The translations under genes and the position numbers were made by a program. Positions 21,114-60,234 of a stretch of DNA of 64,000 nucleotides are shown piece by piece; position 1 is the first letter of the stretch; every line of letters begins with the position of its first letter. The notes beneath the pieces are model-generated. The model was given only the letters and a program-made list of their open reading frames with translations. It ran no database searches and was not told the DNA's origin. Source of the DNA: an uncultured Flavobacteriales bacterium (lineage in GTDB: Bacteria > Bacteroidota > Bacteroidia > Flavobacteriales > Schleiferiaceae); the NCBI GenBank assembly GCA_913055685.1, contig CAJXKC010000001.1, positions 310,001-374,000 on the forward strand. The letters run 5' to 3'.

Positions 21114-21188
21114 CATTGCCTATTTGGGCAAATCCTAATTTAGGGCCAAGGAATTGACAATTATCATGTTCCGCCCACGCGCCTTTGC

Positions 21189-44090: not shown

Positions 44091-44102
44091 TGATTTACAT
44101 CA
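44091..44102. promoter_or_regulatory. FNR/CRP-type box TGATTTACATCA over the YceI gene start region
   Basis: TGAT-TTAC-ATCA, flanked by G and C. It lies at about the expected transcription start of the YceI gene, 43 bp from the second box, so it may repress or modulate rather than activate. Confidence 0.55.
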
Positions 44103-44110
44103 CAAATGTC
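44103..44110 (-). promoter_or_regulatory. Weak -7 element GACATTTG for YceI-porin operon
   Basis: One mismatch from TAnnTTTG on the minus strand. Its centre is exactly 33 bp from the palindromic box at 44134-44145. Confidence 0.5.
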
Positions 44111-44131
44111 CTGCACGGATTTTAGTAGAAC

Positions 44132-44147
44132 TATGATTTAAATCATA
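44132..44147. promoter_or_regulatory. FNR/CRP-type box, perfect 16-bp palindrome TATGATTTAAATCATA
   Basis: Core TGAT-TTAA-ATCA at 44134-44145. Position relative to GACATTTG puts it near -40, a class-II activator site for the YceI gene. Confidence 0.65.
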
Positions 44148-44178
44148 CTTATAACTGAGTTTTATTAGCTTTCCTAAG

Positions 44179-44469
44179 CTACTGTAAATAAGCCATATAA
44201 GCGGGAGCCACCTTGTCTCTCAGTTGTTTAAGGTATAAGAATCCATTGGCCCGGAAGTGCTCACGGCCCTCTACCCAGAAAATTATACCGGGAACACTTA
44301 GCATGCGGTTTTGCCCGGCTAGCTCCAAATGCTCTTCAATATTGAGATAAGACAATTTAATGGCTGGAAAATCTTCTTCCATCATGGCTTTAAGCTTCGG
44401 CCATAGGTCGTGACAAATGGCGCAGCTATTGCCGTAAAAATACCAGAGTTCCAGCGGTGAATTTTCCAT
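44179..44469 (-). CDS. Thioredoxin-fold protein
   Basis: A ~96-residue protein with the redox motif CAIC (WYFYGNSCAICHDLWPKL) and a cis-Pro region (SVPGIIFWVEG) typical of thioredoxins. No signal peptide is visible, so it is probably cytoplasmic. ATG 44469 is used because the longer frame start at 44484 is further from consensus. TAACTTTG at 44495-44502 supplies a good promoter. Divergent from the gene at 44479. Confidence 0.8.
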   Translation of the reverse strand: MENSPLELWYFYGNSCAICHDLWPKLKAMMEEDFPAIKLSYLNIEEHLELAGQNRMLSVPGIIFWVEGREHFRANGFLYLKQLRDKVAPAYMAYLQ

Positions 44470-44474
44470 CTTTG
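44467..44474 (+). promoter_or_regulatory. -7-like CATCTTTG overlapping the divergent thioredoxin start codon
   Basis: One mismatch from TAnnTTTG; ATG 44479 follows 4 bases later. Use would give a nearly leaderless message. Confidence 0.3.
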
Positions 44475-44478
44475 TAGT

Positions 44479-44988
44479 ATGCATCCAGAGCTCACAAAGT
44501 TAATTCTTCAGCGCAAGCCTAAGTCCGATTTACTCGCCTACCTAAAAAAAACCAATGGCTGGAAAGACTTAACAGAGCTACTTTATGCTGAAGACCACGA
44601 TTTAGCCTGGCGTTCAACTTGGCTTTTAAATCAGCTTTCACCTTACGACTTAAAGAAGTTCCATCTAAATGTAGAAGCCTTAATCCATCAGGCGCAAGAC
44701 CGAGGACATTCTCAACAAAGGGAGTGTTTTAAATTATTGGAAAAATTGGTGATCCCAGAAGACTGCTTAAGCCTATATTTCGATTGGGCCGAACAAGTTT
44801 GGATGGATATAAGCCTGCAGTCCTCGGTGCGCATTAGCGCCCTTCGTGCCCTAGAAAGAGTAACCATTATTTATCCAGACCTAAAGGGAGAGTTGGAAGC
44901 ACTATCTAGCCAAGAGTTGCTGGAGCCTCTTAGTCCGGGAATCCGCAAACAGGCGCAGAAAATTTTTCAATCTTTAGCCAAGCTCTGA
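44479..44988 (+). CDS. HEAT-like helical protein of unknown function
   Basis: A 169-residue all-helical protein with repeating paired helices (AEDHDLAWRSTWLLNQLSPYDLKKF, SSVRISALRALERVTIIYPDLKGEL) that resemble HEAT/ARM repeats. No catalytic motif, signal or TM segment. Its end overlaps the convergent ATPase gene by 22 bases. Probably a scaffold or adaptor, which is only an inference from fold. Confidence 0.65.
   Translation: MHPELTKLILQRKPKSDLLAYLKKTNGWKDLTELLYAEDHDLAWRSTWLLNQLSPYDLKKFHLNVEALIHQAQDRGHSQQRECFKLLEKLVIPEDCLSLYFDWAEQVWMDISLQSSVRISALRALERVTIIYPDLKGELEALSSQELLEPLSPGIRKQAQKIFQSLAKL
44495..44502 (-). promoter_or_regulatory. -7 element TAACTTTG for thioredoxin-fold gene
   Basis: Perfect consensus on the minus strand, lying inside the start of the divergent gene at 44479; about 26 bases from ATG 44469. 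Confidence 0.5.
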
Positions 44989-47327
44989 CGCGCAACATAT
45001 GCACTGCGTAAAGTAGTGAAGAGCACTACTGTTACTGAAGATATCGGCATTAATATAGCCGCCATCACCGGCGATAAGTAGCCCATCAGAGCAATAAGAA
45101 CACCGATAATATTGTAGAAGAAAGAAATAGCGAAAGCCAGGTACACAATTTTTCGTGAGGCTTTAGCAAGGGCAATAAAACGGGCTAATTTTGGAAATGA
45201 ATCTGCCATTAAAAGCGCATCACTAGCCGGGAAAAAGCTAATGTCCTTTTCACAGAGACTTATGCCCACTTCACTTTGCTGAAGGGCACCCGCATCATTT
45301 AGTCCATCGCCTAGCATTAAGACCTTTTGTTCTTGGTCTTGCAACTTTTGTAAATACTCCAACTTTTGGTGCGGACTGCAATTAAAAACCATATCAGCCT
45401 GACCTTTAAACAAGGTCTTAAAACGTTTGGCTTCAGCATCATTATCACCACTTAGTACGCTTAGATGGTAGGTCTTAGAAAGACTTGCGGCAATCTGATC
45501 CAGATTTTCGCGCGTTTCTTGATAAAAGCTGAAATAACCTAAAACCTTGGCATCTTTCTCTACATATACAGAAGTGGTGCTGGCCTTATCGCTTAAATTT
45601 AAAAAGGAAGCTTTACCTAGTCTAAAGTAGGAAGCTCTTACTCGGGCCCCAACCCCCTCACCGGAGGCTTCTTCAAACTGCAAAGCTGCCTGAGCATCAG
45701 CTTTAGCTATGTCTAAATGCGCTAATAGCACCTTGGCTAATGGGTGTTGTGCATTTAAAGCAATAGTGGCAATTGCCCATCGGTCCTCGAAACTAAGGGC
45801 ATCGCCATGCCATTTTACTTGAATGTCGTTGTTCTTGGTTAGGGTTCCGGTTTTATCAAAAACGATATGATCTATTTGCACCAACTTACTGAGCACGGTG
45901 CTACTTTTTAAAAACAAACCATAACGTCCCATCCAGCGCATCATGCTACCGCCAGTGAAAGGCTCGGCCAAAGCAAGGGCACAAGGACATGCTACTATAA
46001 GTACCGAAGTAAAAACCAAAATTGCCTGTGCCGGACCGGCCGACCACCAAAAAGCGGCTCCCGCCAAGGCTAAGAGAATGATAATGGGGGTGAAATACTG
46101 ACTCACGCTATCACTGAAACTGCGAGCTTCTTTCTTCTCGGAACTAAAGGCCTCCTGAGCCCATAAAGAGGATAAATATGAATGATCAACCGAAGCAGTG
46201 ACTTTGAAGCGCGCTGAGCTATCTATAAGTCGAGCACCGGCAAAAACCTTTTCCCCTTTCTGCTTGCTTACAGGTAGGCTTTCGCCAGATAAATAACTGT
46301 AATCGAGCTGCACCTGTCCACCTACCAAAATACTATCTGCCGTAAGGACCTCGCCCGCCTTAACTAATATTTGATCCCCCTCTTGGAGCTCATCGATGCT
46401 AATGGGTAAAGTGCTTCCATCGCTTTGGAACTTGCTCGCCGCAAGGGGTAAAAAGGAACGTAAATCGCGATCGAAAGAAAAATTACGATAGGTTTTGGCC
46501 TGGTACCACTTACCCACTAAAAGGAAGAATACTAAGGCGGTTAGGCTATCGAAATAACCAGAACCTATTTGAGCAATAACCTCATAAGCACTGCGTAAAA
46601 AGAGCACGCTTATTCCCAGAGCAATGGGTAAATCAATACTAAGCGCCCCCGCCCTTAAAGATTTAAACGCGGTACTAAAATAATCGCGCGCTGAGTAGAG
46701 CACTACAGGCACACTAAAGGCCATCATTAAATAGCGGAAGAAGTTTTGCAGATCTACATCGTAAGACAAACTCTCATCTAAATACTCGGGCAAGGCCAAA
46801 AGCATGGTATTACCAAAAAAGAATCCCGCTACCCCCAATTGCAACAACAAGGTATTACGAGGCTTCCGATTTGGGTCGAGGTGCGTCTTAAAGTCAGGGC
46901 GGTAGCCAATATAATCCAGGATGGCGGCTATTTGCGACAAACTGATCTTAGCATTATTAAACTGTATGTCTGCTTCCTTTTTAGAGAAATAAACCTGCAC
47001 CTTAGTAATTCCTTCCTCTACCGCGGCTAGATTTTCTAATAAATAAATGCAGGAAGAGCAATGAATAGCCGGAAGGTGAATGGAAATTCTACTGTAATCG
47101 CCGTCTTCAAAACGACAAAGTTTTTCACGAATCTTAGGCTCGTCCAAATAAAGGTATGGCTCAATCTTTAGCTGAGAGTGATCTATAATGGATTGATCCG
47201 AGTCCATGAGCTCATCCACCACTTTACAGCCATAGCAGCAATATTGCTTGGCTGGGTCTTCACCAAGAACCGGATCAACAATAGCTTGATGGCAATGGCT
47301 GCACTCTAAAAGGGTTTCTTTGGACAT
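44967..47327 (-). CDS. ccoI: CcoI/FixI-type copper-translocating P1B-ATPase
   Basis: A 786-residue P-type ATPase. N-terminal Cys-rich domain (LECSHCHQ, KQYCCYGCKVV), then an HMA domain with IHCSSCIYLLENL, eight predicted helices including the ion-site helix with ACPCALAL, phosphorylation site DKTGTLT, and hinge GDGLNDAGAL. The extra N-terminal Cys domain is typical of CcoI/FixI, which loads copper into cbb3 oxidase. The cco genes lie 13 kb away in the window. ATG 47327 is preferred to the GTG at 47333. An FNR-type box at 47364-47375 lies upstream. Confidence 0.88.
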   Translation of the reverse strand: MSKETLLECSHCHQAIVDPVLGEDPAKQYCCYGCKVVDELMDSDQSIIDHSQLKIEPYLYLDEPKIREKLCRFEDGDYSRISIHLPAIHCSSCIYLLENLAAVEEGITKVQVYFSKKEADIQFNNAKISLSQIAAILDYIGYRPDFKTHLDPNRKPRNTLLLQLGVAGFFFGNTMLLALPEYLDESLSYDVDLQNFFRYLMMAFSVPVVLYSARDYFSTAFKSLRAGALSIDLPIALGISVLFLRSAYEVIAQIGSGYFDSLTALVFFLLVGKWYQAKTYRNFSFDRDLRSFLPLAASKFQSDGSTLPISIDELQEGDQILVKAGEVLTADSILVGGQVQLDYSYLSGESLPVSKQKGEKVFAGARLIDSSARFKVTASVDHSYLSSLWAQEAFSSEKKEARSFSDSVSQYFTPIIILLALAGAAFWWSAGPAQAILVFTSVLIVACPCALALAEPFTGGSMMRWMGRYGLFLKSSTVLSKLVQIDHIVFDKTGTLTKNNDIQVKWHGDALSFEDRWAIATIALNAQHPLAKVLLAHLDIAKADAQAALQFEEASGEGVGARVRASYFRLGKASFLNLSDKASTTSVYVEKDAKVLGYFSFYQETRENLDQIAASLSKTYHLSVLSGDNDAEAKRFKTLFKGQADMVFNCSPHQKLEYLQKLQDQEQKVLMLGDGLNDAGALQQSEVGISLCEKDISFFPASDALLMADSFPKLARFIALAKASRKIVYLAFAISFFYNIIGVLIALMGYLSPVMAAILMPISSVTVVLFTTLRSAYVARQSLAKD

Positions 47328-47332
47328 GATCA

Positions 47333-47340
47333 CAAAAGTG
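47333..47340 (-). promoter_or_regulatory. Weak -7-like element CACTTTTG for ccoI
   Basis: One mismatch from TAnnTTTG on the minus strand. Centre is exactly 33 bp from the FNR-type box at 47364-47375. The ATG at 47327 would then be almost leaderless. Confidence 0.4.
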
Positions 47341-47347
47341 TGGAAGC

Positions 47348-47355
47348 TACCTTTG
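47348..47355 (+). promoter_or_regulatory. -7 element TACCTTTG for FNR-like gene
   Basis: Perfect consensus on the plus strand. The FNR-type box at 47364-47375 lies just downstream, where a bound regulator would block its own promoter. Confidence 0.5.
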
Positions 47356-47363
47356 CTTCAAAA

Positions 47364-47386
47364 TGACTTTTATCATATATTTGATA
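47364..47386. promoter_or_regulatory. FNR/CRP-type box in ccoI-fnr intergenic region
   Basis: TGAC-TTTT-ATCA at 47364-47375. It partly overlaps a second inverted repeat, TATCA-N6-TGATA, at 47371-47386. It could activate ccoI (minus) and repress the regulator (plus). Confidence 0.55.
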
Positions 47387-47412
47387 GACCAAACACACCT
47401 TAAAAAATCCTT

Positions 47413-48111
47413 TTGGAAACACCAATTCGCTGTCAATTCTGCTCTCATTTACCCGGAAGTGCCTTTCACGGACTCAATAATGACGCTCTTGAGGAGATAA
47501 GTCATATGAAGACTTGTGTCTCTTTTCGCAAGGGTCAAGTGATCATGCATGAAGGAGCAAGACCGCAAGGAGTTTATTGTGTACACAGAGGTAAAATAAA
47601 ACTCTACACCCTAGGCACTGAGGGCAAAGAGCAAATCATCCGTTTTGTTACCAAAGGAGACTTAATTGGTTATCGAAGTATATTAAGTGATGAACCAATT
47701 AGTGCATCAGCCACCGCTTTAGAAGACACCCACGCATGTTATATACCCAAGTCCTCTTTCTTTAAGGTGATTGAGGACAATCCCAAATTTTCCCTAAACC
47801 TTCTACAGCTCTCCTGTCACGAATTAGGAGAAGCGGGTAAAATGATTACTAGTTTGGCTCAGAAAAGCGTAAAAGAACGTTTGGCCGAAATTCTCTTAAT
47901 TCTGCGCACCACTTTCGGGGAAGACGAGGAAGGGTACCTGGATATTAGTCTCACTCGTGAAGAGATTGCCAATATGGTAGGTACCGCTACCGAATCGGTA
48001 ATTCGACTTATTTCAGAGTTAAGAAAAGACGGCTTTATAGACAGCAAAGGCAAGCGCATTAAGGTAAATGACGGTTCTGCCTTGAGAGAAATTGCTTCTG
48101 TTTTCGAATAA
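47413..48111 (+). CDS. FNR-like Crp/Fnr family transcriptional regulator
   Basis: A 232-residue regulator: N-terminal CxxC (Cys7, Cys10), cNMP-type sensor beta-roll (~35-120), dimer helix, and a C-terminal HTH (LTREEIANMVGTATESVIRL). Compared with E. coli FNR, Cys20/23 and Cys122 have counterparts (Cys7/10 and Cys109), but the position of Cys29 is Ser. Cys35 and Cys56 are also present. In the recognition helix the FNR Glu and Arg are kept and Ser212 is Ile. Start is the TTG at 47413, the only start that includes the CxxC. Likely an oxygen or redox sensor, inferred. Confidence 0.85.
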   Translation: METPIRCQFCSHLPGSAFHGLNNDALEEISHMKTCVSFRKGQVIMHEGARPQGVYCVHRGKIKLYTLGTEGKEQIIRFVTKGDLIGYRSILSDEPISASATALEDTHACYIPKSSFFKVIEDNPKFSLNLLQLSCHELGEAGKMITSLAQKSVKERLAEILLILRTTFGEDEEGYLDISLTREEIANMVGTATESVIRLISELRKDGFIDSKGKRIKVNDGSALREIASVFE

Positions 48112-48112
48112 C

Positions 48113-48124
48113 TGATAAAAATCA
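48113..48124. promoter_or_regulatory. FNR/CRP-type box TGATAAAAATCA ahead of cNMP-domain gene
   Basis: TGAT-AAAA-ATCA, beginning 2 bases after the FNR-like gene's stop. Centre is 33 bp from the -7 element TACCTTCG at 48148-48155, i.e. about -40 from the expected start. Confidence 0.62.
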
Positions 48125-48147
48125 TTTGCCCCTTTTTTAGCGCAGCC

Positions 48148-48155
48148 TACCTTCG
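48148..48155 (+). promoter_or_regulatory. -7-like element TACCTTCG for cNMP-domain gene
   Basis: One mismatch from TAnnTTTG, 18 bases before the GTG at 48173. Confidence 0.5.
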
Positions 48156-48172
48156 TTTTCAATAAATAGAAG

Positions 48173-48613
48173 GTGAATCTCAACACAATAAAAAATCGGC
48201 TCCAGCAAATTTTGCCCTTTGAGGCGAGCGCGCTCATCTTGGAAGAAATTGCCTTGCAAAGCAGTTACATTCCGTTTAATGGAGTGGGTGAACATCTTTT
48301 TAGAAAAGGTGATTCGGCCTTGGGTTTTTATTGGATACTCTCGGGGGAAGCCGAGATTATTATTCCTGGTAAGCGCTCTATTCGTTTAAAGGCGGGAGAA
48401 ATGGCCGGTTTAGACTCCTTCATCGAAGACGATCCTATTTCCTTTGATATAATTAGCTCCTCCGCTATATTAGATTGCCTATTTATTGACCGTCGGTGTT
48501 ACAATCGTATGCGGGAACACAGTGAGTTTAACCGCCAGATGAACCATATGGTGATGTCTTGTTTGCGCAATTATCGAGGCTTATTAATTCCCGAAGAAAA
48601 GGTTTATTCCTAA
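48173..48613 (+). CDS. Stand-alone cyclic-nucleotide-binding-fold protein (no HTH)
   Basis: A 146-residue protein holding only the Crp/Fnr-type beta-roll (FRKGDSALGFYWILSGEAEIII, LKAGEMAGLDSFIEDDPISFDIISSSAILDCLFIDRRCYNRM) and the start of the dimer helix. It ends at EEKVYS with no DNA-binding domain, and the sequence downstream does not encode one in another frame. GTG start at 48173. Sits directly behind the FNR-like gene with its own FNR-type box, so it may be a signalling partner or anti-regulator; function unknown. Confidence 0.78.
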   Translation: MNLNTIKNRLQQILPFEASALILEEIALQSSYIPFNGVGEHLFRKGDSALGFYWILSGEAEIIIPGKRSIRLKAGEMAGLDSFIEDDPISFDIISSSAILDCLFIDRRCYNRMREHSEFNRQMNHMVMSCLRNYRGLLIPEEKVYS

Positions 48614-48649
48614 AACCTAGATTTCTATCTTGGCCCCTTATTATATCCT

Positions 48650-49825
48650 ATGCAAGATATCGACGTCCTTATTGTTGGCGCCGGTCCGGCCGGAAGTACT
48701 CTTTCCCACTTTTTACTTAAAGAAGGCATTGATCACCTCCTAATTGACAAAGCCAGCTTCCCGCGTGATAAGATTTGTGGAGATGGTATTACCGTTGATG
48801 TAATAAATGTATTAAAGCGTATCGACCCGGAACTTCCTCTAAAATTTGCTAAAACCTCCGACATTTTGCCTTCTTGGGGCCTAAGTTTAAATGGTCCCAA
48901 AGGACAAAATTTACGAGTCGACCTGAAAGGAGAACTGCCCATTGCTCCTTTTTTCACTGCGCGACGGATTGATTTAGACCAATTCTTATTGAATGAATTA
49001 AGCACGCAAGAGCACTTTTTCACTGAATGCAGCTTGACCCGGCTAGAGCGAAATGAAAAAGGAATTCGAGCAAGCTTAAGCCACAAAGGTGAATCTAAAT
49101 CTGTTCAATGTAAAATCGTTATTGGTGCTGAAGGTGAAAAGCCCATAGTAACTAAGCTTCTGGGGTTGGATCATTATCGAGAAAGAGAACATCTAATGGC
49201 TGCCATTCGCATTTATCATGAAAATGTAAAAGGCTTTCATCCCAATAATCACTTGGAGTTTTTCTTTGATAAGAACTTACTACCTGGCTATTTCTGGGCC
49301 TTCCCATTATCTAATAATCAAGCTAATGTAGGCCTTGGAATGGTGAGCGCCCACATTTCAAAGAATAAAATAAACCTAAAAAAGGTATTTGAGGAAGTAA
49401 AAGTGAGCAATCCATGGATTAAACCAATGTTTGAAGAGGCGATAACCTTAGAAACAACAAAAGGATGGGGACTTCCTAACATGACTAAAAAACGCTTAAT
49501 AGCGGGGGATAATTATGCTTTAATTGGCGACGCAGGTGGCTTTATAGAACCTTTAACCGGAAAAGGAATTGGCCCAGGCATGATGAGTGCTCGTATCGTA
49601 TCTGAACACATTTTGGAAGCACTCACTAAAAAGGAATACAATCTCATTAGATATCACGATCATATGTATCGCTACTACAATAGAGAAATTAAAATTGGCT
49701 ACACGCTGCAGAAAAGTTTTAATTATAATTGGATCCTGAATCCTTTTATAAACGTGCTCAATTGGGCTCCGATATTAAAATATGGCAAAGACAAAATGGT
49801 GCGTGATTTCAGCAACTGGATATAA
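48650..49825 (+). CDS. FAD-dependent oxidoreductase, geranylgeranyl reductase family
   Basis: A 391-residue flavoprotein. Residues 5-33 form the FAD-binding Rossmann motif (VLIVGAGPAGSTLSHFLL), FPRDKICGDGI follows at ~40, and the second FAD motif ALIGDAGGFIEPLTGKGIGPGM is near residue 285. This pattern is that of geranylgeranyl reductase/lycopene-cyclase-like enzymes, which reduce isoprenoid chains. The substrate is unknown. The gene looks more A+T-rich, with more Asn/Lys, than its neighbours. Confidence 0.83.
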   Translation: MQDIDVLIVGAGPAGSTLSHFLLKEGIDHLLIDKASFPRDKICGDGITVDVINVLKRIDPELPLKFAKTSDILPSWGLSLNGPKGQNLRVDLKGELPIAPFFTARRIDLDQFLLNELSTQEHFFTECSLTRLERNEKGIRASLSHKGESKSVQCKIVIGAEGEKPIVTKLLGLDHYREREHLMAAIRIYHENVKGFHPNNHLEFFFDKNLLPGYFWAFPLSNNQANVGLGMVSAHISKNKINLKKVFEEVKVSNPWIKPMFEEAITLETTKGWGLPNMTKKRLIAGDNYALIGDAGGFIEPLTGKGIGPGMMSARIVSEHILEALTKKEYNLIRYHDHMYRYYNREIKIGYTLQKSFNYNWILNPFINVLNWAPILKYGKDKMVRDFSNWI

Positions 49826-49871
49826 TTCGTTTCCAGCACTCTAGGCAACGGCATACGGCTTAATATTTTCT

Positions 49872-49879
49872 TAACTTTG
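49872..49879 (+). promoter_or_regulatory. -7 element TAACTTTG for HAD-like gene
   Basis: Perfect consensus 23 bases ahead of ATG 49903. Confidence 0.55.
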
Positions 49880-49902
49880 AGGCTCAACAGCCAAGGAAAC
49901 GA

Positions 49903-50574: not shown

Positions 50575-50607
50575 CCGTTTCCCTTTAAGCCACGCGAACA
50601 TGCGCTT

Positions 50608-52032: not shown

Positions 52033-52039
52033 TTAAGGC

Positions 52040-54280
52040 ATGGAGCTTCTGCACAAGTATAGGTATCATTTTATTCCCCTTATTTTCTTAGGGGCTATTG
52101 GCTTATGGCCCAGTTTTAAACAAGCCTTAGAGGTAGACAATAGCCTGCAGGCCTGGTTTATTAAGGAAGATCCTGCCCTCGAAGCTTATTTCGACTTTCA
52201 AGAGAACTTTGGTAATGACGAGCTGGTCTTTCTAGTTTACGAAAGTCCGCAATCGGCTTTAAGCCTGGAGGACTTCCAATCCCTAAAAAATTTGGAAAAG
52301 GCCTTGGAAAGCCATCCAGATGTAGCAGATGTTATTTCACCCTTTGACCTTCGTCTGGCACCGCAGTCCATTTTTCAAAACCAAGGGCCCATTTGGTTAA
52401 AAATGGACGGACAGGAACGAGAAGAGATCCAAAAAAATATTGATGCCGAACCCTTTTACAAAGACCAATTTTTTGACTCGAATACCAAAGCCTTAAAATT
52501 CTTGATTCGTTTAGCGCTGCCGCCCGATTTCGAGGAACGGCGAGCCGAAATTTTACAGGACATTTACGCTATTAGCGATGATTATATAGATGCCGACCAA
52601 GCTTATTTTGGAGGTTTGGCAGTTATCTACGAAGCAATGAATAGTCTTAGTAAAAAAGACTTTTCGCGCTTTCTGGGTATAGGATACTTATTAATGTTTG
52701 TGCTAATCGGCCTTATATATCGATCTTGGCAGTACATAGTATACGCCTTGGCCACCATAGGTCTGGCTACTTATTTCACTTTAGGAATTTATGGTAGCAT
52801 GGGGCATCGGCTCAATTTATTGAGCACCCTTATTCCGGCCATAATCATTTTGCTATCGGTTATGGATGTAATGCACATCTTAAATGAACGCAGTAAGGAG
52901 AAGCGGGGAACTGACTTAAAAACCGCGGCGATAGCAAGTTTAAAAAGTATCTGGAAGCCTTGCCTCTTTACTAGTTTAAGCACTATGGCTGGTTTTTTAT
53001 CTCTGAGTATAAGTCCGGTTTTAATCTTAGCCAATTTTGGCATTTATGCAGCCATTGGTATCGGCTTCGGTTTAATTTTTTCATTTTGGTTAGGACTCAT
53101 AATTCTCCCCAGATTACATCCCAAAAAGAGTGCTTTTGTAGCGTCCCAAACCTTGGTAAAGCTGCAGGATTGGGTAATTAAAAAGCAAGCTTTAGTGTTA
53201 AGTTTATTCGCCCTAATCCTAATTTGGGCAGCATGGCAAATCCCAAGTTTAGTAGTAGACACCAATAGCATTGCCTATTTGCCTGAAGAGCATCCAGTGC
53301 GAAGCGATTCAAAAAAGATCGAACAGTTAATGGGCCCTTATATGCCTCTCGACTTTAGCTTGGAATGTGCAGATGGCTATACCACTCAAAGTCCTGAAAT
53401 CTTGAAAGCACTTTTTCGCATTGATTCTGCAGCAGAGCAAATGCCTAGAGTAGGAAAAATGCAAGGCTACCATGAGCTTTTTAGAGCCGCATTACAAGAT
53501 CGTTACGGCAAAAACTGGCGGAGAGGACTAGAGAAAGAATCCCTCCTGGCTAAAATTGCTAGCACAGCAGAACGCAGTGCTCCAGAGTGGGTACGCAATT
53601 TCAATCGCCCCGACTACCAAATGGGTCGATTCGTCTTAAGCGGGGAATTAGTTTCAGCGGCAAAACTCAATGCAATAATTGCAGAAATGGACAGCTTAGC
53701 CAGTCATCATCTTGGTGACATGGCTAAGGTTAAAGTTAGCGGCTACCAAAGTCTCTACGGCAAAATTGTAAATTATGTAACTCGTAGTCAGGTTAGAAGC
53801 TTAGGTTTAGCCACCCTATTGGTTTTTCTGCTTTTGTGGTTATTCTTAAAGGACTTGCGTTTAAGCCTAATTTCCCTTTTACCTAATTTCTTTCCGGTGA
53901 TTATTCTCTTGGCTAGCATGTCCGCTTTAGGAATTGAGCTCGATACTGCAACCGCTAGTATCGCTAGCATTGTTTTAAGTTTCTCGATAGACGATACCAT
54001 GCATTTTATTTGGCGCTACCGTAGTTTAAAGCATAGGGGACTAAGTTTAAATGAAGCGCGCCGCGAGACTATTGGTCACGTTGGAAAGGCCATCCTTTTT
54101 ACCTCCTTGGTACTTTTTGTAGGCTATAGCCTTATGTTGTTCGGTGAATTAAAAACCGTGATCTACTTCGGTTCACTTACGGCGCTGTCGATTGTGGCGG
54201 CTCTGCTTAGTCAGTTTTTCCTTTTTCCCATCCTTTTGAAAAACTATGACCGCCCAATAAAGGAAGTACGAAACGACTGA
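52040..54280 (+). CDS. MMPL/RND-superfamily transporter
   Basis: A 746-residue membrane protein with helix layout 1+5+1+5. TM1 is near residue 12. A periplasmic domain (~35-205) follows, then five helices (~210-355), a second periplasmic domain (~400-575) and five helices (~585-735). The conserved LSFSIDDTMHFIWRYRSL block lies near residue 648. Related to, but clearly diverged from, the exporter at 27315. Probably cotranscribed with the aldehyde dehydrogenase. Its last 74 bases overlap the convergent gene on the minus strand. Confidence 0.85.
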   Translation: MELLHKYRYHFIPLIFLGAIGLWPSFKQALEVDNSLQAWFIKEDPALEAYFDFQENFGNDELVFLVYESPQSALSLEDFQSLKNLEKALESHPDVADVISPFDLRLAPQSIFQNQGPIWLKMDGQEREEIQKNIDAEPFYKDQFFDSNTKALKFLIRLALPPDFEERRAEILQDIYAISDDYIDADQAYFGGLAVIYEAMNSLSKKDFSRFLGIGYLLMFVLIGLIYRSWQYIVYALATIGLATYFTLGIYGSMGHRLNLLSTLIPAIIILLSVMDVMHILNERSKEKRGTDLKTAAIASLKSIWKPCLFTSLSTMAGFLSLSISPVLILANFGIYAAIGIGFGLIFSFWLGLIILPRLHPKKSAFVASQTLVKLQDWVIKKQALVLSLFALILIWAAWQIPSLVVDTNSIAYLPEEHPVRSDSKKIEQLMGPYMPLDFSLECADGYTTQSPEILKALFRIDSAAEQMPRVGKMQGYHELFRAALQDRYGKNWRRGLEKESLLAKIASTAERSAPEWVRNFNRPDYQMGRFVLSGELVSAAKLNAIIAEMDSLASHHLGDMAKVKVSGYQSLYGKIVNYVTRSQVRSLGLATLLVFLLLWLFLKDLRLSLISLLPNFFPVIILLASMSALGIELDTATASIASIVLSFSIDDTMHFIWRYRSLKHRGLSLNEARRETIGHVGKAILFTSLVLFVGYSLMLFGELKTVIYFGSLTALSIVAALLSQFFLFPILLKNYDRPIKEVRND

Positions 54281-54512
54281 TCGTCATAAGCATTAGTGAT
54301 CGCAGTAAGCTGTATAAGCCGTGACCACCTTTTAGCTTTTTGCCTTTGGTGAAGAACTTGCTAAATACCGATAGGGCGTGACCACCCAGCCAGGAAACTC
54401 CGTCAATCCCGAAAGGTAATTTCCCCCTTAATGGATCTAAACTTTTGGCCAGAACCTCCTTTTTAACTTCCAGAAGTTCAATATCCTTATTTAGTTTCTC
54501 CCTCTGGTTCAT
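54207..54512 (-). CDS. Small unknown protein ending the Dps/YtxH operon
   Basis: A 101-residue protein with an N-terminal helix (REKLNKDIELLEVKKEVLAKSL) and a Gly/Leu-rich hydrophobic C-terminal half (LLRSLMLMTISRFVLPLLGG). It overlaps the upstream holin-like gene by 26 bases, and its 3' part overlaps the MMPL gene by 74 bases, tail to tail. I recognise no family. Confidence 0.6.
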   Translation of the reverse strand: MNQREKLNKDIELLEVKKEVLAKSLDPLRGKLPFGIDGVSWLGGHALSVFSKFFTKGKKLKGGHGLYSLLRSLMLMTISRFVLPLLGGHSFSKGWEKGKTD

Positions 54513-54870
54513 GCTCCTTATTTGGTTCTAAACTTTCGCGTAGCGCTTTAATCATTAAATTTTGGAAAGGCCCTATTAACAATGCTCGACGGAAGCGAAC
54601 AAAGATTCCGAACAAGAGAATAAAGGATAAAAAGGCCAAGCCAAATCCATAGACGGTCGAGTTGAGCAAGTCGGAAATAAAGAAGCCTAACCACAATCCG
54701 CCTAGAATGAGGGTTATATTAAAAAAGACTAAGAAAAAAATAAGCGCGTAGGCCCTCGCCACGATTGACGAAACCGCTCGAACTGATTTTAATTTCACCA
54801 GCTCCAGTTCGGTGTGGAAATAGGCCTTTACTTGCTCTATCCAAGCTTTAAACTCATCCCAAATTTTCAT
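54487..54870 (-). CDS. Phage-holin-family (DUF1469/Actinobacterial holin-X) membrane protein
   Basis: A 127-residue protein: amphipathic N-terminal helix (WIEQVKAYFHTELELVKLKSV), two TM helices (YALIFFLVFFNITLILGGLWLGF and VYGFGLAFLSFILLFGIF), and a charged C-tail. This is the layout of the DUF1469 holin-like family, found in stress operons and unrelated to lysis. Overlaps the YtxH gene by 17 bases. Confidence 0.8.
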   Translation of the reverse strand: MKIWDEFKAWIEQVKAYFHTELELVKLKSVRAVSSIVARAYALIFFLVFFNITLILGGLWLGFFISDLLNSTVYGFGLAFLSFILLFGIFVRFRRALLIGPFQNLMIKALRESLEPNKEHEPEGETK

Positions 54871-55117
54871 CTTGTGGCTTATTTACCCGTTCCAGCTCTG
54901 ATTTTAGGCTGTGTAAAAACTCATCCTTTAGGTCGTCTAAAATTCGACCAATACCCTCTCCAAGGTCTTTCAGATCATCCTTTACATCGTCTGCCTTATC
55001 ACCGATCTGTTCGCGTGTTTCTTCACCACTTTGGGGTGCCAAAAGTAGTCCGGCGGCAAAACCGAGGGCGGCCCCGATTAAGGTACCTACAATCACTTTT
55101 TGATTGGAATCACTCAT
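54854..55117 (-). CDS. YtxH-domain stress protein
   Basis: An 87-residue protein with one N-terminal glycine-rich helix (GTLIGAALGFAAGLLLAP) followed by the typical PQSGEETREQI and a long charged coil (DKADDVKDDLKDLGEG). ATG 55117 (MSDSNQKV) is chosen; the open frame to 55186 runs into the upstream gene. YtxH proteins are induced by general stress in several bacteria. Confidence 0.82.
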   Translation of the reverse strand: MSDSNQKVIVGTLIGAALGFAAGLLLAPQSGEETREQIGDKADDVKDDLKDLGEGIGRILDDLKDEFLHSLKSELERVNKPQDENLG

Positions 55118-55145
55118 CGCTAATTTTATATGAAGGTACGCTTTA

Positions 55146-55508
55146 CTATTGAAACATTTGCTGATGTTCATCAGCTTGATCCACATTGGCTACGAAGTCC
55201 ATTACCGCCTCTTGATAAGGCGATTTGAAGAAATACTCCAAAAGAAACTTCTCACCATCATCGGATCTAAGTCCTAATAAAACTTTGGGCACAAACTCTC
55301 CTTCATTTGGACTTAAATAGGAGTCTTGTGAAAAGAACCGATGTACTTCTGCAATTTCCAATTCCTGTGGACGGTAAGCTTGTCCATTGTAAACGGCACG
55401 GTTAGGACCTAAAACAGTGATGGCTTCTTGGAAGCCATCACTTTTCATTTTATCCTTTGCCTTAGTCCATTTAGAATAAGGGTCAGTATTTGGGTTAGTA
55501 CGTTTCAT
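55146..55508 (-). CDS. Conserved hypothetical protein after dps
   Basis: A 120-residue soluble mixed alpha/beta protein (DGFQEAITVLGPNRAVYNGQAY, FVPKVLLGLRSDDGEKFLLEYFF). Its ATG overlaps the dps stop by one base (TAATG), indicating coupled translation. No family recognised. Confidence 0.65.
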   Translation of the reverse strand: MKRTNPNTDPYSKWTKAKDKMKSDGFQEAITVLGPNRAVYNGQAYRPQELEIAEVHRFFSQDSYLSPNEGEFVPKVLLGLRSDDGEKFLLEYFFKSPYQEAVMDFVANVDQADEHQQMFQ

Positions 55509-56017
55509 TACGAGGCATTAAAGCTACGTAACATCCAAGCGGCTTTTTCGTGCACGTTTAGACGTTCGGTTAGCAAGTCGACACTCACTTCATCTCCAGC
55601 TTCATCGGCCATGTCTAATGCTTTTCGCATGTTGCGAATTAAATTTTCGTGCGAATTTGTTAAGTCAGCTGCCATCTCCAAGGCTGAGATGTCCATCTTA
55701 GCTTCCTCGATATTACTTAATTGCGAGTATGCTCTAAAAGTACCTGGCGCATCATAACCTAAAGCGCGAATGCGTTCCGCGATTTCATCAATAGCTTCGA
55801 ACATATCATCGTACTGCGATTCGGTTAAATCATGCATGCTTTTAAATAGCTGCCCTTTCACATTCCAATGATAGTTGTGAGTCTTTAACATCAATAGATA
55901 ATGGTCCGCCAAGATTACATTTAGATGCTCAACCACCGAGGCGCGAGCATCCTCGCTTAGACCGGTATTTAAACTATTAGTACTTTGAGTTGAAAGATCT
56001 AAATCTTGTGTGGACAT
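55508..56017 (-). CDS. dps: Dps-family DNA-binding/ferritin-like protein
   Basis: A 169-residue Dps with the ferroxidase residues visible in THNYHWNVKGQLFKSMHDL and YDDMFEAIDEIAERIR. It forms dodecamers that oxidise and store iron and protect DNA during starvation or peroxide stress. The N-terminal ~20 residues are polar (Ser/Thr/Asn/Asp) and lack the Lys cluster used by E. coli Dps for DNA binding. First gene of a five-gene minus-strand unit (dps, unknown, ytxH, holin-like, unknown). Confidence 0.93.
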   Translation of the reverse strand: MSTQDLDLSTQSTNSLNTGLSEDARASVVEHLNVILADHYLLMLKTHNYHWNVKGQLFKSMHDLTESQYDDMFEAIDEIAERIRALGYDAPGTFRAYSQLSNIEEAKMDISALEMAADLTNSHENLIRNMRKALDMADEAGDEVSVDLLTERLNVHEKAAWMLRSFNAS

Positions 56018-56131
56018 ATTGTATTTTTAAATTTTGAGTTCATTATGTTAACGCCACCAAAGCGGTTTTGTTTACGTAATTATTTGATTTTCTGATATAT
56101 AGTATTTATACCTCTCATAGAAACTTTATAT

Positions 56132-56407
56132 ATGCCCACAAAAAGGTTTAAGATAAATGGCCGTGTTCAAGGCGTCTTTTTCCGAAAATTCACCCAAGCC
56201 AAGGCCCAAGACTTAGGCTTAAGAGGAGCCGTTCGAAATCTTAGCGATGGTAGTGTGGAAGCTTGGGCTGAAGGAGATCTAGATAGTTTAAAAGCCTTTG
56301 AGGAGTGGCTTTGGCAAGGATCTCCCCAGAGCCAAGTGAGCGAAGTTGATGTTTATACCAGCGAATCACAAGACTGGACCGACTTTAAAATTATCGCAAG
56401 TGCTTAA
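56132..56407 (+). CDS. acyP: Acylphosphatase
   Basis: A 91-residue alpha/beta sandwich hydrolysing carboxyl-phosphate bonds. The phosphate loop GRVQGVFFRKFTQ with its catalytic Arg is at residues ~8-20; the catalytic Asn lies in GAVRNLSDGSVE (~35). Start MPTKRFKINGRV is standard. It precedes rbfA by 16 bases. Confidence 0.93.
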   Translation: MPTKRFKINGRVQGVFFRKFTQAKAQDLGLRGAVRNLSDGSVEAWAEGDLDSLKAFEEWLWQGSPQSQVSEVDVYTSESQDWTDFKIIASA

Positions 56408-56423
56408 TTCGTAATTTTGACCC

Positions 56424-56783
56424 ATGGAATCGAATAGACTAGAGCGACTGGAGAGTCAGATGCAAAAAGACCTAGCGGAAATTTTTCGTGAATTGGCCCA
56501 AAATCAATTCAGAGGGGTACTCTTTACTATTACTCGCGTGCGGGTGAGTGCCGATTTATCAATTGCTCGGGTAAACCTTAGCCTTTTTCCGGTTAAGGAT
56601 AAGGATACTATCCTAGAGTGGATAAAAGAGCACAGCAAGAGCATTAAAGATTTATTGGTTAAAAAGATGAAAGGCAGTTTGCGCAAAATGCCCGAACTGT
56701 ATTTCTATCTCGACGAATCTTTAGACGCTGAGGCAGAAATAGACCGCATCTTAAAGCAAGGGGGAGATAGCCCTATCAAATAA
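56424..56783 (+). CDS. rbfA: Ribosome-binding factor A
   Basis: A 119-residue KH-fold protein assisting late 30S maturation and cold adaptation. Typical start (ESNRLERLESQMQKDLAEIFRE), central VTRVRVSADLSIARVNLSLF-like strand, and final LRKMPELYFYLDESLDAEAEIDRIL. Its TAA is directly followed by the TTG start of the permease gene, suggesting coupling. Confidence 0.94.
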   Translation: MESNRLERLESQMQKDLAEIFRELAQNQFRGVLFTITRVRVSADLSIARVNLSLFPVKDKDTILEWIKEHSKSIKDLLVKKMKGSLRKMPELYFYLDESLDAEAEIDRILKQGGDSPIK

Positions 56784-57986
56784 TTGAAGATCAGCAGCCA
56801 CATAGCTAAACGCTATTTCTTTTCGAAGAGTAGTAGCAATGCGGTGAATATCATTACCGGAATATCGGTGGCAGGCATCCTGGTTGGAAGTGCGGCTTTA
56901 ATTATTGTTTTAAGTGCCTTCAATGGTCTAGAAAACCTAGTGCGTGGTTTTTACGAGGACTTCGACCCCGACTTGAAAATTGTACCCCACAGTGGGAAAT
57001 TCTTTCAAGAGTCGGCGGTGGACTCTGTCTTAGAGTCCCAAGCGGGCATTATTAGCTATGCCAAGGTTCTGGAAGAAAAAGCCCTTTTCAGCTTTAGAGA
57101 CAAAGAGTTTATTGCCAGCCTAAAGGGAGTAGACCAGCAATACAGCTCGGTTACTAATATTCGTTCAAAGATTCCTTACGGCGAGTATCGTCTCAATGAA
57201 AACTTGGCGGTAAACTCAGCGGTTATTGGTGCTGGGGTAGCCTATTATTTAGGCTTTAGCCGCTCCGATTTTCAGGAACCCATTAACATATTTATCCCCA
57301 AAGAAAGCAGTGGCTTGGGCGATCAAAGTTTTCGCAGTGATCGGCTTTTCCCTTTAGGCTTTTTCTCCGTTCAACCCGAGTTTGACGAGCAATATGTCTT
57401 AAGCAGCTTAGATTTTAGTCGGGAAGTCCTAAACAGACCCCAGGCTTGCAGTGCAGTAGAATTAGCCATCGACTCCTCCTACAATATTGAATCCGTTCAA
57501 GAGAACTTAAAGCGACGTTTGCCAGGCTTTGAAGTATTAAACCGTGAAGAACAACAAGCTAGTTTTCTCAAGGTAATGCGTACCGAAGGCTTATTCACCT
57601 TTCTCATATTTGCCTTAATCTTATCAATCGCCACCTTTACCATTGCCGGGAGCTTAACCATGCTTATGTTCGAAAAGCGCGGCAATTTGCATACGCTTTG
57701 GTCAATGGGCACTTCCATCTCGGAATTACGCAAAGTGATTTTAAAACTGGGTATGATAATAAGTCTAAGTGGTGGAATCGGTGGATTACTAATCGGAGCG
57801 CTGGTAGTAATTGCCCAAGAGCACTTTCAACTAATCTCAGTTGGAGAAGGCTATATTGTAGACGCTTACCCGGTAGCATTGCGCTGGACCGATTTAATGA
57901 TTGTGGCGGTAACCGTACTCGGTTTGGGTTATTTAAGTGCCTGGTTAAGCGCCCGTCGTTTAAACCTTAAACTCTTAAAGTCTTAG
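56784..57986 (+). CDS. LolC/LolE-type ABC transporter permease (FtsX-like)
   Basis: A 400-residue inner-membrane permease with TM1 at ~25-48 (ISVAGILVGSAALIIVLSAF), a MacB-like periplasmic domain (~50-265) and three C-terminal helices (LFTFLIFALILSIATFTIAG, IISLSGGIGGLLIGALVV, LMIVAVTVLGLGYLSAWL). Such proteins extract outer-membrane lipoproteins together with a LolD ATPase, which is not adjacent. Starts with TTG at 56784, immediately after the rbfA stop; KISSHIAKRYFFS is the usual N-terminus. Confidence 0.88.
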   Translation: MKISSHIAKRYFFSKSSSNAVNIITGISVAGILVGSAALIIVLSAFNGLENLVRGFYEDFDPDLKIVPHSGKFFQESAVDSVLESQAGIISYAKVLEEKALFSFRDKEFIASLKGVDQQYSSVTNIRSKIPYGEYRLNENLAVNSAVIGAGVAYYLGFSRSDFQEPINIFIPKESSGLGDQSFRSDRLFPLGFFSVQPEFDEQYVLSSLDFSREVLNRPQACSAVELAIDSSYNIESVQENLKRRLPGFEVLNREEQQASFLKVMRTEGLFTFLIFALILSIATFTIAGSLTMLMFEKRGNLHTLWSMGTSISELRKVILKLGMIISLSGGIGGLLIGALVVIAQEHFQLISVGEGYIVDAYPVALRWTDLMIVAVTVLGLGYLSAWLSARRLNLKLLKS

Positions 57987-57991
57987 AAGTC

Positions 57992-58993
57992 TTAATAAGG
58001 CAGAAGCATTTCTGTTTCCGCAAATTGGCTTTCAATTTCTTTCAGGGTGGCGTATACCTCCTTGGGGTCATCGGCCGTAACTAAGCGGGTGCGGTATTCT
58101 TTAAAATTAGGAATGCCCTTAAAATAATTGGTATAATGCCTGCGGGTTTCATTAATCCCTAGGCGTTCTCCTTTCCAGTCGAGAGCCATTTCGAAATGAC
58201 GGCGACAAGCCTCTACTCGTTCCACCAAACTTGGAGCCTCCAACAATTCACCAGTTTTGAAGTAATGCTTTATTTCTCGGAAAATCCAAGGGTAACCAAT
58301 CGAGGCCCGGCCAATCATTAGACCATCTACTCCATATTTATTGCGATAGTCCAAAGCCCTTTGTGGGCTATCGATGTCACCGTTACCAAAAACCGGAATT
58401 TTCATGCGAGGATTGTTTTTTACCTCAGCAATGAGCGACCAGTCGGCCTCGCCCTTATACATCTGTTTTCGAGTACGGCCATGAATCGAAATAGCTTGTA
58501 TGCCCACGTCTTGTAGTCGCTCGGCCACTTCTACAATATACTTGGTGTTATCATCCCAGCCCAAGCGGGTTTTAACGGTAACCGGCTTATCTACCGCCTC
58601 CACAATTTCCTTGGTCATGGCCACCATTTTAGGTATATCCAGCAAAATTCCTGCGCCGGCACCTTTACAGGCCACTTTCTTTACCGGGCAACCGTAGTTG
58701 ATATCGACTATATCGGGATTGGCCTCGGCGGTAATTGCTGCTGCTTCTCGCATGGAGCTAATTTCATCGCCAAATATTTGAATACCTAAGGGCCTTTCGT
58801 ACTCAAAGAAGTCCAGTTTCTGCACACTTTTAGCGGCATCGCGAATTAATCCCTCCGAAGAAATAAACTCCGTATACATCACATCCGCCCCATTTTCCTT
58901 GCATAATGCACGGAAGGGAGGGTCACTCACATCTTCCATGGGCGCAAGCAATAGGGGGAATTCTCCAACTTCTACATCTCCAATTTTTACCAC
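57992..58993 (-). CDS. dusB: tRNA-dihydrouridine synthase B
   Basis: A 333-residue FMN enzyme reducing uridines in the tRNA D-loop. Seen: LLLAPMEDVSDPPFRALC, VDINYGCPVKKVACKGAGAGIL with the catalytic Cys, KTRLGWDD, SIHGRTRKQMYKG, GNGDIDSPQRAL and GRASIGYPWIF. The GTG at 58993 (VVKIGDVEVGEFP) is preferred to the TTG at 59011, because homologues begin here and a TAATTTTG promoter lies at 59017-59024. Confidence 0.94.
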   Translation of the reverse strand: MVKIGDVEVGEFPLLLAPMEDVSDPPFRALCKENGADVMYTEFISSEGLIRDAAKSVQKLDFFEYERPLGIQIFGDEISSMREAAAITAEANPDIVDINYGCPVKKVACKGAGAGILLDIPKMVAMTKEIVEAVDKPVTVKTRLGWDDNTKYIVEVAERLQDVGIQAISIHGRTRKQMYKGEADWSLIAEVKNNPRMKIPVFGNGDIDSPQRALDYRNKYGVDGLMIGRASIGYPWIFREIKHYFKTGELLEAPSLVERVEACRRHFEMALDWKGERLGINETRRHYTNYFKGIPNFKEYRTRLVTADDPKEVYATLKEIESQFAETEMLLPY

Positions 58994-59016
58994 CTTCGAG
59001 GAATTTATCAATTTTG

Positions 59017-59024
59017 CAAAATTA
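59017..59024 (-). promoter_or_regulatory. -7 element TAATTTTG for dusB
   Basis: Perfect consensus on the minus strand, 23 bases before the GTG at 58993. Confidence 0.55.
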
Positions 59025-59041
59025 CAAAAAGCACAATTGCT

Positions 59042-59953
59042 ATGATTAAAGGCCTTTTTGCCGATAAGAGTTTATTCCAACAACTCCTCTTACTGTTCTT
59101 CCTGGCCTTTATGGGTACCTTGTTCTTTACCGCTATTGGTTTGGCGATTGCGGCAGGCATTTATGATATTTCCACCGAGGAGGCCTTTTCCATTATCAGC
59201 AATTTAAACAGCTCTGCTGGTCGTGAGTCTTTTAAAATAATCCAAGGCTTTTCTACTATCGGTACTTTTTTGGTGCCCGCAATTTTAGGCGCCCATCTAC
59301 TCAGTCATCAGCCTGAGCGCTTTATGGGCCTAGACCGGTTTCCACAGCCTGCCTATTTATTTATTATCCTGCTTATTCTAGCCGGTTATGGTTTAGGTGC
59401 TGCCAGTGATGTATTGTATCGCATCAGCGAAAGCTTTCCCTGGCCCGATGATTTAATTGCCAGCTTTGAAAGTAGTCAGCAGATTATGACCGAGCAATAT
59501 CAGGCCCTCTTGCAAATGGCCAATCCTGTAGAATTTATGCAAGTCTTTTTATTGATGGCCATTTTACCGGCCGTTGGAGAAGAAGCCCTTTTTCGGGGAA
59601 CTTTACAGCCCCTCTTGCAACGCTATATGTCGCCTCACCTGGCAATATGGCTAACTGCCTTTATGTTCGCACTTCTACATTTACAATACCTTTCCTTCCT
59701 GTCTATCTTCGTTTTAGGAGCGGTTTTGGGCTATTTGCGCTACTGGACCAATAGTATTTGGCTGCCCACTTTATTGCATCTGGTTAATAATGGCGCCATA
59801 GTAATTGCGGTGTACTTTTTAGACATGGATTATGCCGAAAACCTCAGTGGTACCGAGAGTTTAAGCTGGATCGAAAGTACGGTGCTTATAGCCATTAGTG
59901 CGGTTTGCCTACTTATTATGGAGCGCATCAGCCGCAAGGCTCGATTGGATTAG
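59042..59953 (+). CDS. CPBP-family intramembrane glutamic endopeptidase
   Basis: A 303-residue multi-helix membrane protein of the Abi/CaaX-protease (CPBP) family. Motif 1 EEALFRG (with EExxxR) lies near residue 180, motif 2 (FALLHLQY) near 210, and the HLVNNG motif near 248. Around seven or eight helices. Substrates are unknown. Divergent from dusB. Confidence 0.88.
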   Translation: MIKGLFADKSLFQQLLLLFFLAFMGTLFFTAIGLAIAAGIYDISTEEAFSIISNLNSSAGRESFKIIQGFSTIGTFLVPAILGAHLLSHQPERFMGLDRFPQPAYLFIILLILAGYGLGAASDVLYRISESFPWPDDLIASFESSQQIMTEQYQALLQMANPVEFMQVFLLMAILPAVGEEALFRGTLQPLLQRYMSPHLAIWLTAFMFALLHLQYLSFLSIFVLGAVLGYLRYWTNSIWLPTLLHLVNNGAIVIAVYFLDMDYAENLSGTESLSWIESTVLIAISAVCLLIMERISRKARLD

Positions 59954-60002
59954 TTCTAAATAATGCTCTAATTGCCAAGCTTTAGGCTCATTTCCAATTA
60001 GC

Positions 60003-60014
60003 TGACAAATATCA
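60003..60014. promoter_or_regulatory. FNR/CRP-type box TGACAAATATCA ahead of the cco operon
   Basis: TGAC-AAAT-ATCA. Centre is 33 bp from the -7 element TATTTTTG at 60038-60045, i.e. about -40 from the expected start, matching the boxes at 44134, 47364 and 48113. Confidence 0.65.
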
Positions 60015-60037
60015 TTTTCTAGGCCTAGGGCTCCCGA

Positions 60038-60045
60038 TATTTTTG
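60038..60045 (+). promoter_or_regulatory. -7 element TATTTTTG for cco operon
   Basis: Perfect consensus, 24 bases before the ccoS ATG at 60070. Confidence 0.6.
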
Positions 60046-60069: not shown

Positions 60070-60234
60070 ATGTCGGCAATTTATATTCTTATCTCCATTA
60101 GTTTCCTTGTTGCTATTGGCTTTTTGGTTGCTTTTATCTGGAGCATCAAAAATGGCCAATACGAGGACGACTATTCTCCGAGTGTTCGAATGTTAAAGGA
60201 CGGCACCAAATCAAAGCACAGACCTAAATTTTAA
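60070..60234 (+). CDS. ccoS: Cbb3-type oxidase assembly protein CcoS
   Basis: A 54-residue single-TM protein (MSAIYILISISFLVAIGF, then VAFIWSIKNGQYEDDYSPS). The W-x-x-K-N/S-GQYED(D) block right after the helix is the CcoS hallmark. CcoS is needed to insert heme and copper into cbb3 oxidase. First gene of the operon; ccoN starts 2 bases after its stop. Confidence 0.93.
   Translation: MSAIYILISISFLVAIGFLVAFIWSIKNGQYEDDYSPSVRMLKDGTKSKHRPKF

Follow-up and report, generated by a model that had tools for sequence, protein, structure and literature searches.

A predicted FNR-type regulon for low oxygen in Flavobacteriales, with a fixed distance between box and promoter

The stretch of DNA considered here (64,000 nucleotides from an uncultured Flavobacteriales bacterium; "the window" below) carries a gene for an FNR-type regulator, which we call fnr, at 47413-48111, together with palindromic boxes that precede genes of micro-oxic respiration. 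The reading that we favour, and to which we would give a probability of roughly 0.85, is that the 47413 protein acts at boxes centred on -41.5, where it would drive a class II micro-oxic regulon, and that it represses its own gene. The protein, probably with an oxygen-labile iron-sulfur cluster, would bind MTGAYNNNNRTCAT boxes at low oxygen. At -41.5 it would occupy the place of the -33 element and, at a -7 element of the TAnnTTTG type, would recruit or activate RNA polymerase carrying the primary sigma factor of Bacteroidota. Its class II targets in the window would be ccoS-NO-P, ccoI, a gene for a cyclic-nucleotide-binding (cNMP) domain protein and a YceI gene; elsewhere in the genome they would be hemN, cytochrome c-nosZ, pckA and a purine nucleoside phosphorylase gene. 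The single box between ccoI and fnr would activate ccoI. As it also falls within the fnr promoter, with the -33 element on one side and the -7 element on the other, it would silence fnr, a negative feedback from one complex.

By "gap" we mean the number of bases between the end of a box and the start of the -7 element, the two orientations of a box being counted separately. A previous reading of the window, made from the sequence only, had claimed four boxes and four -7 elements with their centres 33.0 bp apart. All eight lie where it put them, and each pair has a gap of 23 and a centre-to-centre distance of 33.0. The N27 in its scan pattern was an arithmetic slip, the correct spacer being N23. 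It was also correct that two of the four -7 elements deviate from the consensus at base 1; a third (TACCTTCG) deviates at base 7. The boxes have the palindromic TGA...TCA form of FNR-type class II promoters. The features are:

44134-44145, box TGATTTAAATCA for the YceI gene, at a predicted class II position
44103-44110, minus strand, -7 element GACATTTG of the YceI promoter
43511-44083, minus strand, YceI-domain protein (PF04264)
47364-47375, box TGACTTTTATCA shared by ccoI and fnr, its centre at a predicted -41.5 for ccoI and -18.5 for fnr
47333-47340, minus strand, -7 element CACTTTTG of ccoI
44967-47327, minus strand, ccoI-type heavy-metal P-type ATPase, by profile search
47352-47355, plus strand, TTTG, the -33 element of the fnr promoter, 20 bases ahead of the fnr -7 element
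47376-47383, plus strand, -7 element TATATTTG of fnr, abutting the box (gap 0)
47413-48111, plus strand, FNR-type regulator gene, with invariant Cys 7, 10, 56 and 109
48113-48124, box TGATAAAAATCA for the cNMP-domain gene
48148-48155, plus strand, -7 element TACCTTCG of the cNMP-domain gene
48173-48613, plus strand, cyclic-nucleotide-binding-domain protein
60003-60014, box TGACAAATATCA for ccoS-ccoNO-ccoP
60038-60045, plus strand, -7 element TATTTTTG of ccoS
60070-60234, plus strand, ccoS (TIGR00847)
60237-62402, plus strand, ccoN-ccoO fusion (NF011053)
62573-63517, plus strand, ccoP, best match TIGR00782, under its cut-off

The window holds 12 TGAYNNNNRTCA sites where 2.53 are expected, a number that none of 100 shuffles reached, and within gaps 0-60 of these 12 boxes there are nine matches to NANNTTYG, four of them at gap 23. 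Over the whole genome the excess of loose boxes is modest (203 against 142 for a backward control pattern, or 1.4x), and AT-centred boxes number 25 against 10. Three classes of box were taken completely, namely the 25 AT-centred ones, 33 whose single central G/C is in an outer position and 20 in which it is in an inner one; these 78, with 21 further loose sites, make 99 scored boxes of the roughly 203. At each gap a -7 element was counted if it had at least 5 of the 6 bases of TAnnTTTG, and the background is the mean over 80 other gaps. Among the AT-centred boxes, 9 of 50 orientations have a -7 element at gap 23, with a mean of 0.49 at other gaps (Poisson 3e-9), and 5 of 42 still do so when the four window sites are taken out (Poisson 7e-5). 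The 21 other loose boxes give 2 of 42 orientations over a background of 0.28. For boxes with a single central G/C the count is 2 of 106 over 0.75, and with so little enrichment they were dropped as a regulon class. Most loose boxes do not have the gap-23 spacing. The sequence-only reading had staked its claim on a genome-wide comparison of the spacing with background, and it comes out of that comparison well, with a single peak at gap 23 among the AT-centred boxes.

The same spacing recurs in relatives. In a scan of named genomes, which covered 16 loci (15 of them from Bacteroidota), all boxes together have 34 -7-like elements at gap 23, while the runners-up, gaps 0 and 45, have 8 each. The regulator is present in 40 of 80 genomes of the window's family and in 102 of 196 of the order, and we studied 95 loci: 40 of the 40 in the family, 50 from the 78 matching genomes outside it and 5 from named Flavobacteriaceae. 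A ccoI-like gene is divergent from the regulator in 86 of these, with a strict box in between in 80, and the ccoI -7 element stands at gap 23 in 53 of the 80. Counted with NANNTTTG, the gaps at ccoI are 23 in 51 cases, 22 in 3, 24 in 3 and 43/44 in 12, with at most one at any other value. The conservation of the box and the -7 core in the 53 promoters follows from how they were selected, but the selection put no constraint on the spacer sequence, of which 18 of 23 columns are under 0.4 bit; the five columns next to the box are AT-rich and more conserved than the rest. Hence the length of the ccoI spacer is kept and most of its sequence drifts. For ccoS, a survey that covered 68 of the 81 genomes with ccoN finds gap 23 in 21 of 30 loci of a first set and, in a second set, in 10 of 10 loci of the family that we label f3.

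TAnnTTTG is the -7 element of flavobacterial sigma-A and lies at -12 to -5 in mapped promoters of F. psychrophilum (PMC9723704). Because of this register and the gap of 23, the centre of the box would fall at -41.5, which is the class II activator position, the start in our host being taken over from F. psychrophilum; the sequence-only reading had said "near -40", which agrees. Of the 23 promoters that FNR activates in E. coli and whose start is known, 19 have the site within 4 bases of -41.5 (PMC3688515).

The box at 47364-47375 had been regarded as a ccoI site only, and it was overlooked that the same box lies inside the promoter of fnr. That promoter is complete in the window, with TTTG at 47352-47355, TATATTTG at 47376-47383 and the box within the spacer. 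A protein bound at -18.5 should block the polymerase there, so autorepression is likely. This gap-0 layout of fnr occurs in 18 of the 31 box-bearing loci of the window's family, its -7 element beginning with T in 18 of 18. TTG at N19-22 is found in 13 of these 18 fnr promoters versus 5 of the 53 ccoI promoters, and ccoI can be said to lack a good -33/-35 element. Other families are wired differently at fnr. In the named Flavobacteriaceae the fnr -7 element lies on the opposite side of the box with a gap of 23 in 5 of 5 loci (in f3 only in 1 of 27), and therefore one box would activate both ccoI and fnr. In the family f5 it lies directly upstream of the box in 12 of 13 loci, and the box then covers the start. 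Across the families, then, the ccoI side of the box mostly keeps its spacing and the fnr side changes.

A second regularity concerns the first base of the -7 element, at -12. In the 53 ccoI promoters with gap 23 it is G in 24, C in 19, A in 10 and T in none, and in the ccoS promoters with gap 23 it is T in 31 of 31; a Fisher comparison of the two ignores the relatedness of the genomes. Where the ccoI gap is 43/44, as in f5, the first base is T in 12 of 12. The simplest interpretation would be that ccoI depends wholly on the activator, because it has neither T at -12 nor a -33 element, and that the ccoS promoter is stronger, because it keeps a consensus -7 element.

As for the regulator itself, its predicted fold (predicted local distance difference test, pLDDT, 90.9) matches Crp/FNR proteins, among them holo-FNR 5e44 with a template modelling (TM) score of 0.85, and has the cNMP-like domain and helix-turn-helix (HTH) of the Crp type. 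In a scan against PDB sequences the leading matches are FNR and other chains of the Crp/Fnr family, and some cGMP/cAMP-kinase domains come further down; a PADLOC scan gave nothing better than weak hits (best E 1e-6), and these were to unrelated kinds of model. With NF008365, the model for FNR, the regulator scores 111 bits, below the cut-off of 228. Its cysteines indicate where the difference may lie. All 81 regulators outside f5 have Cys at positions 7, 10, 56 and 109. At position 29, the place of the third N-terminal cysteine, Cys occurs in 2 of 95, and the pattern C-X2-C-X5-C plus a central Cys is not found. Cys 7, 10 and 109 align with Cys 20, 23 and 122 of E. coli FNR, and Cys 56 aligns with residue 70, if an offset of 9 is right. 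Four cysteines that are all present or all absent suggest one iron-sulfur cluster, putatively [4Fe-4S], with a moved ligand. In the f5 homologues the four are missing, except for Cys at position 10 in 1 of 14; since the full set occurs in 0 of 14, we did not count these as the same oxygen sensor.

The name "FNR-like box" was only partly apt. The palindrome TGA...TCA is there, but the flanks are A/C and T, which differs from the box of E. coli FNR, whose consensus TTGAT-N4-ATCAA has T before and A after the core. In 134 distinct gap-23 sites, A or C precedes the box in 126 and T follows it in 122; T precedes the TGAnnnnnnTCA core in 3 and A follows it in 1, so that these are not canonical FNR boxes. 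Within the genome of the window, T follows the box in 8 of the nine gap-23 sites and in 4 of the 16 other AT-centred sites (plus strand only). In the recognition helix E194, I197 and R198 are invariant in 50 chosen sequences (none from f5), where the FNR of A. fischeri has E..SR at the corresponding positions, and the flanks may differ from those of FNR because of this change from Ser to Ile.

We would go further only tentatively, with slightly less than even confidence, and propose that Flavobacteriales possess a branch of FNR of their own, in which C-X2-C and two beta-roll cysteines would hold the iron-sulfur cluster (Cys 56 replacing the third N-terminal ligand). This branch would have its own type of box and a shared, oxygen-driven ccoI/fnr switch with class II activation one way and promoter occlusion the other; the ccoI spacing would be kept in evolution, fnr would be re-wired among families and the output tuned by the base at -12.

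The choice of the 47413 product as regulator of the boxes, also made by the sequence-only reading, is likely to be right: of the 86 loci where this gene and ccoI point away from each other, 80 have a box in the intergenic region. What qualifies it is that one other protein of the genome, and only one, exceeds the PF13545 cut-off (HTH at C1:1143374-1143568, locus L269), and the boxes could be bound by this second Crp-type regulator instead. Its helix, EVISR, has E..SR as in A. fischeri FNR, and a box directly follows its reading frame. Yet the flanks A/C...T are not the T...A of E..SR regulators, the -7 element behind that box (TACCTTCA) has only 4 of 6 bases, and two of the four window boxes directly flank the 47413 gene. 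In our opinion it is unlikely that the second protein is the one in charge. It has no N-terminal C-X2-C, and the box behind its frame is followed by frames that by eye resemble cysteine dioxygenase and rhodanese.

A different kind of evidence comes from the family f15, with 20 genomes that have ccoN, are 0.3-0.6 Mb in size (hence probably insect symbionts) and keep a ccoS-like frame beside ccoN, at loci of 20-25% GC. A box at ccoS was found in 0 of these 20, one box lying about 640 bases upstream, and a PF13545 profile search for the Crp-type HTH was positive in 0 of 21 f15 genomes and in 14 of 14 control genomes. The pairing of regulator and box is supported, because the box is absent at ccoS where the regulator family is absent, although f15 is one clade and this may be one event.

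This also bears on the idea that no activator is involved and that an alternative sigma factor reads the box as an extension of the promoter, to which a fixed distance between box and -7 element would be congenial and for which alternative sigma motifs reported in flavobacteria (PMC9723704) give some precedent. Against it stand the two-fold symmetry of the box, its tandem pairs 22 bp apart (11 distinct), its varied places relative to the fnr -7 element (gap 0, gap 23 or just downstream) and its absence at ccoS from the 20 f15 genomes, where no Crp-type HTH was found; on the symmetry, the pairs and the other positions we rejected this idea and consider it very improbable. That the spacing is a coincidence picked by eye in AT-rich DNA, as the mere 1.4x excess of the 203 loose boxes and the little-enriched boxes with one central G/C might suggest, we rejected as hardly credible, because a peak at one gap shows in this genome and reappears in others, and because the AT-rich f15 loci lack a box at ccoS.

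Returning to the 47413 protein as the class II activator, several observations count against it or narrow it, the presence of a second Crp-type regulator being one of them. No ccoI element at gap 23 exists in 27 of the 80 box-bearing intergenic regions, and these include both of f2 and all 13 of f5, where gap 43/44 accounts for 12 and gap 22 for the remaining one, while 6 of the 86 divergent pairs have no strict box. At ccoS, the rest of the first set consists of one locus at gap 24, four with a box at gap 45 only and four with no strict box; f5 has gap 23 in 0 of 9 loci, and the sole f4 genome has it at neither ccoI nor ccoS. Gaps of 22 or 24 are found outside f5 for five ccoI elements, of which three start with A, one with C and one with T, and that single T goes against the rule for -12. 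One gap-23 site of the own genome, C3:135465, has no evident gene. In the window, a box at 21155-21166, preceded by T, lies at gap 22 from a TATTTTTG element ahead of TrhO, an oxygen-dependent tRNA hydroxylase; in spite of the oxygen-linked enzyme we set this site aside as a regulon member, as it is out of register. Finally, the counts come from related genomes and are not independent, and most of the differences in f5 and f15 may be single events.

The further targets fit the proposal. Beyond the four window sites, five AT-centred sites have gap 23. Four of them precede hemN (its product exceeds the cut-off of TIGR00538), a gene for cytochrome c with a NosZ frame behind it that is truncated by the edge of the DNA read there (TIGR04246 over 252 of 578 positions, under its cut-off), pckA and a purine nucleoside phosphorylase gene, and the fifth is the gene-less place just mentioned; a universal stress protein gene has a weaker -7 element (4 of 6 bases) at gap 23. 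Genes for HemN and nos are classic targets of FNR, Anr and Dnr. The claim of a coherent micro-oxic respiration set gains from the gap at hemN and cytochrome c-nosZ and from its recurrence in relatives. Of the genes that the sequence-only reading named as targets, YceI, ccoI, the cNMP-domain gene and ccoS-NO-P hold as identities, and the labels porin, ccoQ and ccoG found no confirmation. In F. psychrophilum, cbb3 oxidase and enzymes of the heme pathway are up under oxygen limitation (PMC9723704).

Several details of the neighbourhood deserve mention. Directly after the YceI -7 element lies a second box, TGATTTACATCA (44091-44102), spanning about -4 to +8. It is a possible brake, which could cap YceI expression when much active regulator is present; locus L031 has a comparable second box. 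Translated YceI-like genes follow gap-23 boxes also in loci L035 and L036, and the same layout is seen in L031 and L037 at the level of DNA, the genes there not being translated. The gene downstream of YceI (42212-43498, minus strand), the "porin" above, has a product without a match in Pfam and NCBIfam profiles, and no HTH family was found by profile search in the product of 48173-48613.

The ccoI messenger is probably near-leaderless. In the window the presumed ATG at 47327 is one base past the predicted transcription start (region 47325-47333), and among 26 gap-23 family loci (L108-L151) the ATG comes 4 bases after the G of the -7 element, that is at +1, in 12 and one base later (5 after) in 2, the window included. 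In Flavobacteriaceae and f3 (L041-L045, L154-L197), AGG, mostly AGGTA, starts at the predicted +1 of ccoI in 17 of 25 gap-23 loci. The ccoI box of f5 (L161-L193) with its gap of 43/44 would be at about -61.5 in 12 of 13 loci; at ccoS, 6 of the 9 f5 loci show -7-like elements, with gaps of 11 and 34/35. The tandem boxes, exactly 22 bp apart, occur in L035, L036, L037, L204, L206, L208, L209, L212 and L214, and this layout would put the second box at about -63.5.

If the proposal is true, there is a widespread regulon with a rigid promoter code in a phylum whose activators are little studied, and its low-oxygen genes can be read from box, N23 and -7 element. The class II geometry would then extend to divergent -33/-7 promoters, and one conserved intergenic region would offer a natural series of activation, spacer occlusion and start-site occlusion. 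A single base would tell how far a promoter depends on its activator, and there would be a candidate FNR in which one ligand of the cluster has moved. As far as titles and the beginnings of abstracts tell, the papers found on FNR-type control in Bacteroidetes and Flavobacteria (subscription papers and supplements lying outside the search) do not describe such a regulon, and the main text of PMC9723704, its supplements aside, has no words beginning with Crp or Fnr.

The class II promoters of E. coli FNR (narG, dmsA and others) have the box at -41.5, as is predicted here, ahead of genes for anaerobic or micro-oxic respiration. They differ from ours in that here the -7 element is the TAnnTTTG of Bacteroidota, the flanks are A/C...T rather than T...A, the spacing is tighter than ±4 and the regulator misses the third N-terminal Cys ligand. 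In addition, the sites at which E. coli FNR represses extend over a region that begins upstream of -35 and goes as far as the start (PMC3688515), which resembles the predicted occlusion of fnr. In F. psychrophilum, sigma-A promoters have the same TAnnTTTG at -12 to -5, and cbb3 is induced by oxygen limitation (PMC9723704). The holo-FNR of Aliivibrio fischeri (5e44 and mutants) is matched by the predicted fold with TM 0.85 and by the alignment of Cys 7, 10 and 109, but position 29 is not Cys here and there is a fourth invariant cysteine, Cys 56, instead. Anr, FnrL and FixK control cco and hemN in Proteobacteria, and their targets are of the same kinds as here (cbb3 oxidase, CcoI, HemN, Usp and denitrification genes); the phylum, the promoter class and the branch of the regulator are different, and NCBIfam models of the FNR type score far below cut-off here. 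In outline, the reading as a class II FNR-type regulon is supported; what sets this one apart is the promoter type of Bacteroidota, the flanks of its boxes and, probably, a changed sensor. New here are the shared box inside the fnr promoter, the rule for the base at -12, the flanks of the box and, if we read the cysteines correctly, the moved ligand.

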